From: Candidatus Desulfaltia sp.
Lineage (GTDB): Bacteria; Desulfobacterota; Desulfobacteria; Desulfobacterales; ETH-SRB1
Assembly: GCA_030656555.1 (NCBI GenBank)
Contig: JAUSPN010000005.1
Span: 1 to 51,048, forward strand
Direction of reading: 5' to 3'
Length of the DNA: 51,048 bases
The position numbers were made by a program, and so were the translations under genes. The notes below the pieces were generated by a model, which was given only the letters and a program-made list of their open reading frames with translations, searched no databases and was not told the DNA's origin. Position 1 is the stretch's first letter; each line of letters starts with the position of its first letter. This document shows, piece after piece, positions 31,605 through 35,508 of the stretch.

Positions 31605-32042
31605 TCACCAAACCAAAGACTGGTGTATCCACCCCCTGTCTCCATCAGCATGCTGAATATTAATCCACTCACCTTTTTGTTTAATAACCTTAAACGGAAT
31701 TCCTTTCTCAACATAAAATAATATCTTATTGTTTAAGCCCGGCCCTGATCGGATGTTGCACTTTACATTGTTTGTGATAACAGATAAAGTTTTATTGACA
31801 AGTGATTTATGCACCCACCCTTCATCATTTTCAAAATCACGAAAAAAGTACCATGGGCCTGATTTTTTTATAACCACAATGGGATAATATTTTTCAACTT
31901 TCCATAAGATATCATAATCAGCGCCCGGCCCGGAACGTATGTTGGCAACCGATGACGTCACGGTTAAGCGTTCAGCAAGGGCAATGCTACTAAATATTAT
32001 GCAAAAAAATATCGCTGCAACTATATATCTCAAGTTTTGCAT
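31605..32042 (-). CDS. Secreted protein with two bacterial SH3 domains
   Basis: The 145-residue protein has a cleavable signal peptide (ending FSSIALA) and two SH3b domains: about 25-80 (VTSSVANIRSGPGADYDILW ... GWVHKSL) and about 88-145 (NNVKCNIRSGPGLNNKILFY ... GWIHQSL). Such domains usually bind peptidoglycan or partner proteins in the periplasm. AAAGAG lies upstream of the ATG. It is 8 bp downstream of feoB on the same strand and so may be cotranscribed with the iron genes, though a functional link is not evident. Confidence 0.85.
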   Translation of the reverse strand: MQNLRYIVAAIFFCIIFSSIALAERLTVTSSVANIRSGPGADYDILWKVEKYYPIVVIKKSGPWYFFRDFENDEGWVHKSLVNKTLSVITNNVKCNIRSGPGLNNKILFYVEKGIPFKVIKQKGEWINIQHADGDRGWIHQSLVW

Positions 32043-32050
32043 AGTGCTCT

Positions 32051-34228
32051 TTAGTTAATCCCTATAATCTTTCCTCCCTGATACACACAAAAACACACAA
32101 TCCATGCAAGAGACGTGCTGTATAGAATAGAGAAAAGCATCCACTTAAAGGCCCCGGTTTCCCGCCAGATAGTTCCCATTGTGGCAATACATGGAAGATA
32201 CAAAAGAACAAAGAGCATCATTGAAAAAGCGGAAAGAGGGGTCATGTTGGATTTGACAAGAGCACTCTGAAGAGCATCGGGCTCTTTTTCAACGGCATAA
32301 AGTATGCCCATCGAGCTGACAACGATTTCCTTTGCCACAACACCGGTAAGAAGGGCCACACTCCCGCGCCAGTCTATTCCCAGAGGCGCAAACAGAGGAG
32401 CAATGCTCTTGCCGATTTTTCCCATAAAAGATTTTTCCGTCTTTTCCGCTCTCCGGGCCATTATAAGTTTTGCTATGGCCATATCCTTTTTTTTCTCAAT
32501 TACATCTCTCTCAGATTTACCGGCAGCCGTAATTTCTGCCTCATATAAAGCTTCTACCCTGACAATTTCTGAAGCATAATCTAAAGAATACCGTATGTTC
32601 GCTGGAAATGCCGAAAGCACCCAAATAACAATGGAACCAACAAGTATCACGCCTCCTATCTTCTTTAAGAATATCTTGCCACGATCCCACATGTGAATCA
32701 ACAGGCTACTGATCATGGGCGCTCTGTATGGAGGCAGCTCCATTACAAACGGAGCATCAGCCCCTTTTAACAGAGTAGTCCTGAACAATCGTCCGGATAC
32801 AACGGAAATTATTATTCCGACAAGATAAACTGCAAATATTACCGTGCCGGCTTTTGCGCTGAAAAAGGCTCCGGCAAGAACTATATAAATAGGCAGTTTA
32901 GCCGAACAGGACATAAAGGGCGTAATAAGAATGGTAAGAATGCGGTCCTTTTCGCTCTCAAGAGTTCGGGCAGCTACTACAGCAGGAACATTGCAGCCAA
33001 ATCCCATAAGCATCGGTATAAAAGACTTTCCATGAAGACCGATAACATGCATTATTCTATCCATTAGAAAAGCCGCTCTTGCCATATAGCCTGTATCTTC
33101 AAAAATGGCTATACAGAAAAAAAGAATTAGAATATTAGGCAGGAAAATTATAACGCTCCCTACTCCGGGAATTATTCCATTTACAATGAGCTCTTTCAAA
33201 ACAGAGTCCGGCAGCAGGTTATTCATCCCTATGGCAAAAAGAGTAACCACCCTGTCGATCCACTCCATAGGATAGGCTCCCACAGAAAAGGTAAGCTGAA
33301 ACATAGCCCAGATAAATAGAATAAAGACAGGGAAACCTAAATACCGGTGCGTTAAAAAAAAGTCGATATTTCTGGATATATCAACACGATTTTGCGATGA
33401 ACTTGTAAGCGTCTTCTTTATTATCCCGGCAATAAAACCATACCGTTCATCGGTCATAACTATTTCAGGGTCATCATTAAAACGATCCATGAGGTGCGCG
33501 CGAAGCGCCTGAACCTCCTGAAGCAGATCATTCCTTTTGTCACCTGCCTTCAGGAGAATCCGTTCCGTTACGATTTTATCATTTTCAAGAAGTTTTATTG
33601 CCGTCCATCTCAAATTATAGGCAAGCTTTGCCTTAACTTTATTTTCAATAAAATCTTGAAGCTTAATAATCGCGTTTTCAATATCCTTGCTATATTTGAC
33701 CTTGCGTTTTTGCTGTATTTCTGCTGTTGACCCGGCAAGCTCAATGGCCTTTGTTAAAAGTGTATCAATCCCCTCATTTTTATTGCCCACTGTAAATACT
33801 ACAGGCAGGTCAAGCAGTTCGGAAAGCTTTTCAGCATCGATTTTGGTCCCCTTTGTCCGGGCAACATCCGCCATATTAAGGGCAAATATAACCCTGCAAT
33901 CAATTTCTCTTAACTGCGTCGCAAGATAAAGGCTTCGTTCCAGGTTGGATGCATCAATAATATCGATTACCACATCCGGACTTTCTTCAAGGACAAAATC
34001 CCTTGCGATTATCTCCTCGATGGAAAATGGCGTTAAACTGTAAGTTCCGGGAAGATCGACAATTTTAAGATCATAACCGTATTTGCTGATTAACCCCTCT
34101 TTTTTTTCAACCGTTACCCCCGGCCAGTTCCCAACCTTCTGCCTGGTTCCGGTAATATTGTTAAATATTGTTGTTTTGCCTGAATTCGGGTTACCTGCAA
34201 GAGCTATAGTTATACTCTTTTCATGCAT
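32051..34228 (-). CDS. feoB: Ferrous iron transport protein B
   Basis: FeoB is the inner-membrane Fe(II) transporter with a cytosolic GTPase domain. The 725-residue protein shows G1 GNPNSGKTT (12-20), switch I VGNWPGVTVEKKEG, G3 DLPGTYSLTPFS and G4 NMAD, then the gate domains with FLMDRIMHVIGLHGKSFIPM, MGFGCNVPAVVAARTLE and ILITPFMSCSAKLPIY containing the conserved core cysteines. It overlaps feoA by one base (TAATG). Length is typical of the anaerobe type. It is expected to be under Fur-type control, consistent with the fusion regulator encoded two genes upstream. Confidence 0.96.
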   Translation of the reverse strand: MHEKSITIALAGNPNSGKTTIFNNITGTRQKVGNWPGVTVEKKEGLISKYGYDLKIVDLPGTYSLTPFSIEEIIARDFVLEESPDVVIDIIDASNLERSLYLATQLREIDCRVIFALNMADVARTKGTKIDAEKLSELLDLPVVFTVGNKNEGIDTLLTKAIELAGSTAEIQQKRKVKYSKDIENAIIKLQDFIENKVKAKLAYNLRWTAIKLLENDKIVTERILLKAGDKRNDLLQEVQALRAHLMDRFNDDPEIVMTDERYGFIAGIIKKTLTSSSQNRVDISRNIDFFLTHRYLGFPVFILFIWAMFQLTFSVGAYPMEWIDRVVTLFAIGMNNLLPDSVLKELIVNGIIPGVGSVIIFLPNILILFFCIAIFEDTGYMARAAFLMDRIMHVIGLHGKSFIPMLMGFGCNVPAVVAARTLESEKDRILTILITPFMSCSAKLPIYIVLAGAFFSAKAGTVIFAVYLVGIIISVVSGRLFRTTLLKGADAPFVMELPPYRAPMISSLLIHMWDRGKIFLKKIGGVILVGSIVIWVLSAFPANIRYSLDYASEIVRVEALYEAEITAAGKSERDVIEKKKDMAIAKLIMARRAEKTEKSFMGKIGKSIAPLFAPLGIDWRGSVALLTGVVAKEIVVSSMGILYAVEKEPDALQSALVKSNMTPLSAFSMMLFVLLYLPCIATMGTIWRETGAFKWMLFSILYSTSLAWIVCFCVYQGGKIIGIN

Positions 34229-34473
34229 TATAAAAAATCCTGTTTAACATCATCGACTGTTATTTGGGCAGCCTCTTCAACGCGAAGGGATATATGATAG
34301 CCCTTTACTATCAATTCAAGCGGATCTTTAAGGGGCGCATATTTTTCAACATATACCCGGGTTCCCTTAAGAAAACCCATTTCTCTTATCCTTCTTTGCA
34401 AAACGCCAGTACCGCCCATGGCGGATATTATTCCGCTTTGCCCCGCTTTCATTTCACTCAACAGCATATTCAA
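34228..34473 (-). CDS. feoA: Ferrous iron transport protein A
   Basis: FeoA is a small cytosolic SH3-like protein needed for FeoB function. The 81-residue protein has the usual MKAGQSGIISAMGG start of the fold, RRIREMGFLKGTRVYVEKYA and PLKDPLELIVKGYHISLRVE. It shares its stop with the feoB start. A second FeoA-like domain is fused to the upstream regulator. Confidence 0.92.
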   Translation of the reverse strand: MNMLLSEMKAGQSGIISAMGGTGVLQRRIREMGFLKGTRVYVEKYAPLKDPLELIVKGYHISLRVEEAAQITVDDVKQDFL

Positions 34474-34519: not shown

Positions 34520-35194
34520 CTAAACCGGGCAACAAAGTATTTTCTGCGACAGGCCGCGCCCCAATACGTAACGATTGCAATCTATTGCAATAACCACCGG
34601 CCCCTTCCCGATATTTGTGATCACATCTATTGTATCTCCGATCTTCAAACCCATTGACAATAAACGCATGCGCGCGGCTGTGTTACCTGTAAAATCTTTG
34701 ATAACAAGCTGTTCACCCTGTTTAGCCATAACAAGCGGTATTGTCTGTTTTCGCTCTTTAAGACATTGAGAGCATATACCATAAATCTCCATCTTGTGCT
34801 GAAGCATGTGAAAATCATGGTTTTCGGCTATCTGTACCTGCAAAAGCTCAAGCCGCTTATCGTTAAACTCAATAATTCTTCTACATTTTGTGCAGATCAT
34901 ATGATCATGGTGCTGGCATAAATGTCTGTGTTCATACCTCACAAGCCCATTATCAAACTTATTTGCCTGAGCAAAACCAAAGCGGCACATAAGTTTTATG
35001 GTGTCTCTTACAAAATCGGGCTCAAAATGAAATTCCTTGTCCTCAAGAATCTGAACCAGTTCGCCGATGGTAACGTGGCGTTCTGTTTTCAAAAAAACGT
35101 CAAGGATCTTGAATCTGTCCTCAAAATTATCAACAAGCTCCTGCTTAAAAAGCTTTTCAAACTGCTGTTTTTCCTGATTGTGGATCTGTTTCAT
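34520..35194 (-). CDS. Fur-family regulator fused to a C-terminal FeoA domain
   Basis: The 224-residue protein has two parts. Residues 1-150 are a Fur-type repressor: a winged helix (about 25-85) and a metal-binding dimer domain with HHDHMICTKC (95-104) and CSQC (141-144), i.e. both structural-zinc CxxC pairs. Residues about 153-224 are a FeoA SH3-like domain (MRLLSMGLKIGDTIDVITNI ... GPVVIAIDCNRYVLGRG). It stands 46 bp upstream of feoA-feoB, so it probably senses iron and controls this operon. Fur and FeoA in one chain is unusual compared with E. coli; related DtxR/IdeR proteins carry a similar C-terminal SH3 domain. Confidence 0.88.
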   Translation of the reverse strand: MKQIHNQEKQQFEKLFKQELVDNFEDRFKILDVFLKTERHVTIGELVQILEDKEFHFEPDFVRDTIKLMCRFGFAQANKFDNGLVRYEHRHLCQHHDHMICTKCRRIIEFNDKRLELLQVQIAENHDFHMLQHKMEIYGICSQCLKERKQTIPLVMAKQGEQLVIKDFTGNTAARMRLLSMGLKIGDTIDVITNIGKGPVVIAIDCNRYVLGRGLSQKILCCPV

Positions 35195-35204
35195 GTTTGT
35201 TCTA

Positions 35205-35228
35205 TGATAAATTCTTAAAAAGTCATTT
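35205..35228. repeat. Solo end of the hairpin element family upstream of the Fur-FeoA gene
   Basis: TGATAAATTCTTAAAAAGTC plus ATTT matches the left end of the 28723-28915 element with two mismatches. It overlaps the 68-bp leader of the Fur-FeoA gene, just downstream of a TATAAT box on the minus strand (35239-35244) that may drive the feo operon. Confidence 0.5.
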
Positions 35229-35262
35229 TGGAATTGGCATTATAAAACTTCGATCAGCACAT

Positions 35263-35508
35263 CTACCTGCTCAACCCCGGTATGTCGTATGTAGTGCATG
35301 AGCCGGATGAACATTGCCTTGTCTTAACGCCTCCCTCTTGACCTTTGCCTGAACCACTGCTCATGGAATAGTTGGTTGTGCTGATAACTCGCTCAAATTC
35401 CTCGGACTTACATTTAGGACATCTAAGCTCAAGCTCTTCATCTTGACTCATTACAAGCAGCTCAAAATATTCCTGGCATTTTAAACATTTAAATTCATAT
35501 ATCGGCAT
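35263..35508 (-). CDS. FmdB family zinc-ribbon protein
   Basis: The 81-residue protein starts MPIYEFKCLKCQEYFE and has the CxxC pairs C8/C11 and C30/C33 of the FmdB/CxxC_CXXC_SSSS putative regulatory family, followed by a serine/glycine-rich tail (SSGSGKGQ). Function in the family is not established; zinc binding is expected. It lies 12 bp downstream of the APS-kinase-like gene on the same strand. Confidence 0.88.
   Translation of the reverse strand: MPIYEFKCLKCQEYFELLVMSQDEELELRCPKCKSEEFERVISTTNYSMSSGSGKGQEGGVKTRQCSSGSCTTYDIPGLSR

Follow-up and report, generated by a model that had tools for sequence, protein, structure and literature searches.

In the DNA analyzed here, a 51,048-nucleotide stretch of a Candidatus Desulfaltia sp. 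genome that is called the window throughout, a Fur-type iron sensor is joined in one reading frame to an FeoA domain. Fusions of this kind are common in related sulfate-reducing bacteria and often lie beside the iron importer genes. The fusion is conserved, retains the metal residues of Fur, has lost the residues by which Fur reads DNA, neighbors feoAB in most relatives and has been joined in some lineages to a further FeoA domain. The reading favored here, with a probability of about 0.42, is that the protein is an Fe(II)-sensing derivative of Fur that would act on Feo import via protein contacts; its close rival is a regulator that reads DNA in a new way. The protein-contact reading is preferred because the sensor is kept, the DNA-reading residues are lost, the fusion lies mostly beside feoAB, and the FeoA of the transporter appears in the twin proteins described below. 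The features of the window are collected in Table 1.

Table 1. Position of the fusion, its parts and its neighbors in the window.
Feature	Position	Strand	Basis or remark
Fur-FeoA fusion, 224 aa	34520..35194	-	Pfam FUR and FeoA in one frame
FUR family match, residues 26-138	34781..35119	-	Pfam FUR, E 2.7e-19
L1-loop equivalent, residues 22-27, DNFEDR	35114..35131	-	alignment to MSR-1 Fur
Recognition-helix equivalent, residues 58-72, EPDFVRDTIKLMCRF	34979..35023	-	
Metal-sensing loop, residues 88-98, EHRHLCQHHDH, including H89 and H91	34901..34933	-	
First CxxC, C101/C104	34883..34894	-	123/123 fusions
Second CxxC, C141/C144	34763..34774	-	123/123 fusions
FeoA (SH3-like) domain, residues 153-220	34532..34738	-	Pfam FeoA, E 1.1e-13
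Free feoA, likely start ATG at 34467	34228..34473	-	Pfam, frame calling
feoB, 725 aa	32051..34228	-	TIGR00437 above its cut-off
Bacterial SH3-domain protein, downstream of feoB	31605..32042	-	recurs near many relatives
FmdB-type zinc-ribbon protein, just upstream of fusion	35263..35508	-	TIGR02605
68-nt gap (the leader of the original prediction)	35195..35262	-	weak Fur-box-like match TCCAAAATGACTTTTTA

The joining of Fur and FeoA in one frame, as originally predicted, is confirmed, and the single open frame runs on the minus strand, from 35194 to 34520, a strand that the prediction had not given. The window protein scores 69.9 bits with the Pfam FUR profile (cut-off 23.1) and 51.5 bits with the FeoA profile (cut-off 23), and at E 0.001 these two are its only Pfam matches, with no DtxR-type domain. 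Among the NCBIfam equivalogs for Fur, PerR and Zur the best score is 62.9 bits, below the curated cut-off of 200. Judged by its profile and its metal residues, the fusion belongs to the Fur family, and its best sequence match among solved structures is the Fur of Campylobacter jejuni (6d57, E 3.6e-14). The fused FeoA domain ends in the type RYVLGRGLxxKI. A structure predicted from 51 sequences (pLDDT 84, pTM 0.43) is confident for most of both domains, while their mutual arrangement in it is not reliable at that pTM. A fold search with the model gave Fur-family chains among the 50 rows of its first listing, and a second aligner gave FeoA and MntR/IdeR chains too.

Both domains are read without stops in one frame in 38 of 58 genomes, the window's own included (a count of rows); one more genome has the fusion split across two contigs, and one other carries a copy with two stops. 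A second collection yielded 97 stretches encoding a relative, and in the best 80 of the 97 both domains were present without exception (80/80). Altogether 123 distinct unbroken fusions were gathered, the window's included. A sequencing error or a chance joining of two genes, which the original prediction had named as a threat to it together with absence from relatives, is therefore ruled out. At E ≤1e-25 the fusion profile finds a match in 292 of 389 genomes sampled from the class, counted by profile match rather than individually for both domains, with a few rows weak or partial. The survey of the FUR and FeoA pair covered the phylum, in a sample of which 164 of 395 match at 1e-30, the weaker rows being plain Furs. 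A hand count gives 65 rows at E ≤1e-52 that extend into FeoA (one stops at profile position 195). Of the 65, 15 belong to the window's order and 50 are labelled as sharing just its phylum. Two further rows (G652 and G672), at about 1e-40, extend across both domains.

The metal site is almost invariant. H40, E88, D97, H98, C101, C104, E109, H133, C141 and C144 occur in 123/123 fusions and H96 in 122/123, so that the two CxxC pairs, noted at the outset as zinc pairs, hold across the whole set. H40, E88, H96, D97 and H98, together with the CxxC cysteines, are taken here to be sensor-site or structural residues of Fur. Two extra histidines are conserved in the sensor loop, H89 in 121/123 and H91 in 120/123, and the loop EHRHLG beside the sensor residues looks unlike that of the 22 plain Furs used for comparison. 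The latter comprise 20 picked from the stronger matches and the two Furs adjoining fusions in loci L103 and L107; because weak or partial Fur matches were left out, this control leans to typical Furs. The plain Fur of L103 and L107 carries the canonical helix ASIYRNI and is the fusion's immediate upstream neighbor, with 19 nt between its end and the fusion start in L107.

The DNA-reading residues of Fur are not retained in this way. In MSR-1 Fur, according to the excerpted text of the study, Lys15, Tyr56 and Arg57 read DNA, and mutation leads to very weak binding for Y56A, none for R57A, and 977 versus 85 nM for K15A (PMC4506495). Pairwise alignment to MSR-1 Fur and a multiple alignment place these three at residues 22, 63 and 64 of the window protein, which are D22, R63 and D64; the Gln19 position is D26, and Arg20 is kept as R27. 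Lys or Arg at the Lys15 position is found in 0/123 fusions versus 20/22 plain Furs, Tyr at the Tyr56 position in 0/123 versus 22/22, and Arg or Lys at the Arg57 position in 1/123 versus 20/22. All three DNA-reading residues are gone in 122/123 fusions, and two of the three in the remaining one. Asp or Glu takes the Lys15 position in 108/123 and the Arg57 position in 101/123, and the stretch of residues 58–64 contains one to three acidic residues in 123/123 fusions and none in 22/22 plain Furs. The mean net charge of the winged helix is −2.6 in fusions (range −9 to 4), as against +4.7 in plain Furs (−4 to 10). Relative to the winged helix, the mean entropy of eight contact positions is 0.87 in fusions (300 draws of nine); for plain Furs the ratio is 0.08 when the nine closest are taken and 0.29 with all 22.

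In a FastTree phylogeny of 41 fusions (every third of the 123) and the 22 plain Furs, for which the program gave a long-branch warning, a single branch (support 100) separates the fusions from the plain Furs. By the residues tested, the fusion is not a Fur-box reader. Since the known DNA-reading residues are replaced in it, the label of a Fur-type repressor in the usual sense, under which the protein was first described, is weak. A salt bridge may link the acidic winged helix (mean charge −2.6) to the basic FeoA domain (+4.6), an idea for which the charges of the 123 proteins show no correlation (r 0.04).

The fusion had also been described as heading feoA-feoB. A free feoA and feoB do follow on the same strand, but genes of that strand precede it as well, namely the FmdB-type gene and further upstream an APS-kinase-like and a phosphotransferase-like gene (both named by eye); the fusion thus sits inside a cluster and not at its start. 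An FmdB gene lies within 1 kb upstream in 52 of the 112 fusions that have at least 700 nt upstream, and such a gene precedes some fusions without feoAB as well. Linkage was counted in the 116 of 123 fusions with at least 900 nt downstream, with a limit of 1.5 kb for feoB on the fusion's strand. A feoB was found after 77 of the 116, in 61 cases as feoA then feoB and in 16 as a twin (Fur-FeoA-FeoA) then feoB, and a free feoA is present in all 61 single fusions that precede feoB. Neither feoA nor feoB adjoins the fusion in 39/116. These unlinked fusions cluster on the tree, with ten changes versus a shuffled mean of 33. FeoB_C gave no match in 3/68 genomes, all of them fusion-bearing: G046 (65% complete), G047 (91%) and G057 (97%). 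The unlinked fusions, the separation of the fused FeoA domain from FeoB-adjacent FeoA and the three assemblies without an FeoB_C match argue against a strict tie to FeoB. The FeoA part may nonetheless sense iron or contact FeoB, as originally proposed.

The fused FeoA domain is of a type of its own. In a tree of FeoA domains thinned to 120 (76 of 123 fused first domains, 33 of 63 free ones and 11 of 18 twin second domains), one branch with support 0.998 parts all fused first domains from the rest, placing 120/120 on their own side. The stretch EKYAPLxDP...HxSLRxEEA is present in free and twin-second FeoA and absent from fused first domains. The nearest solved sequence relative of the fused domain is FeoA 3e19 (profile match E 5.3e-15). 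A likeness to the C-terminal SH3 domain of DtxR-family regulators, suggested in the original prediction, is borne out by fold comparison of residues 148–224 of the model, which match FeoA 3e19_C with Z 13.7 (rmsd 1.3, 77 residues) and the MntR chain 5zr4_B with Z 13.3 (rmsd 2.1, 77 residues); as modelled, the domain resembles FeoA and the SH3 part of MntR about equally. Five clamp residues (F23, I27, M30, I59 and L61) have been proposed in the FeoA of B. fragilis (BfFeoA), according to the excerpted text of PMC8980893. Three of the five were mapped: I27 and M30 are kept, as L178 in 111/123 and M181 in 113/123, and the F23 position is mostly Ala in fusions (70/123).

The twins (L183, L030, L094–L099, L101, L102, L104–L106 and L108–L112) carry a second FeoA domain that groups with FeoB-adjacent FeoA in the domain tree. 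Where the contig continues, feoB follows closely. Twins are scattered over the tree, and L183 shares only the phylum with the window. Explaining the twin state on the tree takes four changes, and for three of these well-supported branches leave no alternative; the count rests on FastTree with long-branch warnings that name the twin row L030, and gains and losses are indistinguishable in it. Repeated fusion would be the simplest reading of this distribution. In five of 17 twin assemblies (G058, G064, G067, G069 and G071) both FeoA matches fall within the twin and none outside, a number to be read with possible missing contigs in mind because completeness is not given for these five. The structure model of a twin is weak (pLDDT 70, pTM 0.32).

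The DNA in front of the fusions was searched for operators. Of 93 distinct fusions in the first two collections, 85 have at least 40 nt upstream, and 81 upstreams remained after removal of near-copies; the last 150 nt, bounded by a preceding FmdB gene, were scanned, and the expectation was taken from dinucleotide shuffles. The 17-bp delta-proteobacterial Fur box (dFUR-box), as it stands in the excerpted text of PMC545781, is WTGAAAATNATTTTCAW. Matches to this form of the box at 14/16 or better occur in 6/81 upstreams versus 0.2 expected, and at 15/16 in 3/81 versus 0.02; the latter three all start 29 nt before the ATG. One of them is in G037, a 92% complete assembly in which the fusion is the sole Fur match. 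De novo, the search gave a sigma-70-like core promoter, by eye TTGACA-17-TATnnT, with a likelihood of 393.5 versus 101 for shuffled sequences and a score above 10 bits in 44/81. With −35 boxes masked, a palindrome search gave the dFUR-like 17-mer TT.AAAAT.ATTTT.AA (61.5 versus 22–31 in mononucleotide shuffles) and an AT-rich 21-mer, AtaAt.aTTt.aAAt.aTtaT (84.0 versus 24–36). The 17-mer is matched at 11/14 or better in 21/81 upstreams versus 5.6 expected and at 12/14 or better in 7/81 versus 0.8, both by dinucleotide shuffles. A dFUR-like operator thus precedes a minority of fusions, in the best cases at a constant spacing, and is probably the target of some Fur. No new operator common to the family was found in the 81 upstreams, apart from the core promoter and the partial palindrome of dFUR type.

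The 68-nt leader of the window, originally proposed as the site to be bound, fares poorly in this comparison. Its best match to the dFUR-box in the form given above is 11/16, a level reached by 48/81 upstreams and by 32/81 shuffled ones, it belongs to the 21 upstreams with the 17-mer palindrome at 11/14, and no promoter-like site was found in it. What stands of the original interpretation is a genuine fusion with a feoAB link in most relatives and a C-terminal domain of the FeoA and SH3 fold; a repressor of the usual kind and an operator in the leader are not supported. Genome-wide, the same box allowed two mismatches was 1.8 to 14 times as frequent as its control in 15 genomes, a control that is poorly matched because the reversed pattern is not palindromic. 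The assembly G007, which has no FUR match, gave 46 sites of this pattern versus 13 for the same poorly matched control, so the count is non-discriminating. In two genomes of the genus, the window's (L224, C18) and G004 (L226), a box with one mismatch to that form lies 84–85 nt before a conserved lipoprotein-like gene; the fusion is the sole FUR match in both.

The complement of regulators bears on what the fusion could be doing. The window's genome, with a listed completeness of 100%, has the fusion as its sole FUR match and gave no match to PF02742 (DtxR-type); FeoA matches twice (in the fusion and in the free gene) and FeoB_C once. In a set of 54 genomes, 47 carry the fusion, and it is the sole FUR match in 14 of these; with the window's genome this makes 15 of 48 fusion genomes, 11 of the 15 being listed as at least 90% complete. 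PF02742 likewise has no match in five of 12 tested assemblies of this sole-Fur kind (G000, G003, G012, G028 and G037). At least one additional FUR match at E 0.001 is found in 33/48, two of these weak. Three related assemblies, G007, G016 and G021, have no FUR match; PF02742, searched in G007 and G021, matches in both.

In the protein-contact reading, the window protein would be a copy of a Fur subfamily with its own type of FeoA (SH3) domain. Fe(II) would bind in the Fur sensor site of a presumed dimer and alter the relation between the winged helix, the dimer core and the FeoA domain. The FeoA part would relay this conformational switch to Feo import, with FeoB or its FeoA as the simplest recipient, although another partner is conceivable, and the effect on transport could have either direction. 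The outcome would be a feedback loop that acts on the transporter itself instead of its promoter. A more specific version, in which a Fur gave up DNA reading to become a direct, iron-operated controller of Feo and the twin made the transporter's own FeoA part of the sensor, is put forward more tentatively.

The close rival holds that the protein is a DNA-binding iron regulator that would read another operator through the Arg or Lys at the Tyr56 position and the wing, with the FeoA domain working intramolecularly to stabilize the metal-bound form, as may be the case for the SH3 domain of DtxR/MntR-type regulators. The structure model is confident about the winged helix of the fusion (mean pLDDT 92–93, residues 41–70), the Arg20 position is kept in 121/123 fusions, position 63 is Arg or Lys in 88/123, and the wing is more basic in fusions than in plain Furs (+1.33 versus +0.05). 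A fusion without a regulatory role on DNA would be odd as the sole FUR match of nearly a third of the fusion genomes, some of them also without a PF02742 match, which weighs against the protein-contact reading. Fur-box-like palindromes at a fixed distance before a minority of fusions favor the rival too, and no single case argues more strongly that the fusion binds DNA than G037, with its sole Fur match and its dFUR-like site. Furthermore, removal of the second FeoA domain from P. gingivalis MntR abolished manganese and DNA binding, according to the excerpted text of PMC4805248. Against such a binder stand the net negative winged helix, contact positions that are not conserved, and the result that no operator beyond core promoter and partial palindrome unites the 81 upstreams. 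The same dFUR-box-like sites would suit an ordinary Fur-box repressor of its own operon that merely carries an FeoA domain. This is improbable given the loss of all three DNA-reading residues in 122/123 fusions and the low match of the window's gap. In G037 itself, seven other sites with no more than one mismatch to the box as excerpted lie inside frames (six) or between convergent frames (one), with no recognized iron gene behind them by frame calling and eye.

Two further readings have a low probability. The fusion could be a mixed-dimer partner that pulls plain Fur off DNA, as was considered as one option for a Desulfovibrio desulfuricans Fur without a DNA-binding domain in the excerpted text of PMC545781. 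The kept dimer and metal part, the lost DNA reading, the adjoining plain Fur in L103 and L107 and the further FUR match in 33/48 fusion genomes would agree with this; nevertheless, 15/48 fusion genomes, the window's included, have no other FUR match to be pulled off, and we consider this the least probable of the readings. Alternatively, the protein could be an iron-binding accessory of Feo, a buffer or chaperone without a regulatory switch. The kept metal ligands, the two extra histidines of the sensor loop and the nearness of feoB in 77/116 are in line with such a role, which is as improbable as the ordinary repressor: a complete winged helix and dimer domain are retained that a chaperone would hardly need, and 39/116 fusions lie apart from feoAB.

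Should a Fur indeed have become a direct, iron-operated controller of Feo, iron import would be switched on or off at the level of the finished protein and need no promoter for it. The fusion subfamily offers a natural test of the role of FeoA and of Fur signalling by protein contact. Pfam-based annotation would probably name the fusion a Fur repressor, a misleading label for what is the sole Fur-family protein found in this genome. No title or abstract opening describing a Fur-FeoA fusion was found in the literature searched, with subscription papers and preprints outside its scope; of four papers that contain the string fur-feoa, three bear titles on Fur itself and one on a fur mutant.

Compared with Fur as known from MSR-1 (4rb1–4rb3) and C. 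jejuni (6d57), the fusion agrees in the winged helix, in the domain for dimerization and metal, in both CxxC pairs and in the sensor residues, but it lacks the equivalents of Lys15, Tyr56 and Arg57, has an acidic recognition helix and an HxH in the sensor loop, and is extended by FeoA. With DtxR, MntR and IdeR it shares the plan of a metal-sensing winged-helix protein with C-terminal FeoA/SH3 domains, of which P. gingivalis MntR has two according to the excerpt of PMC4805248, whereas the N-terminal part of the fusion is Fur by Pfam. The C-terminal domain has the SH3-like fold of FeoA (3e19, BfFeoA 7r7b) and differs from FeoB-adjacent FeoA in being joined to Fur and in lacking the EKYAPLxDP...HxSLRxEEA stretch. 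One inventory of FeoA architectures did not include FeoA-like domains where these were joined to DtxR-type or other non-Feo proteins, as far as its excerpted text goes (PMC8980893). The FeoAB fusions described there, mainly in Bacteroidetes and Firmicutes, resemble the present protein in that FeoA is covalently joined to a component of iron import; in those FeoA is joined to FeoB, whereas here it is joined to a Fur-type sensor and FeoB is separate.
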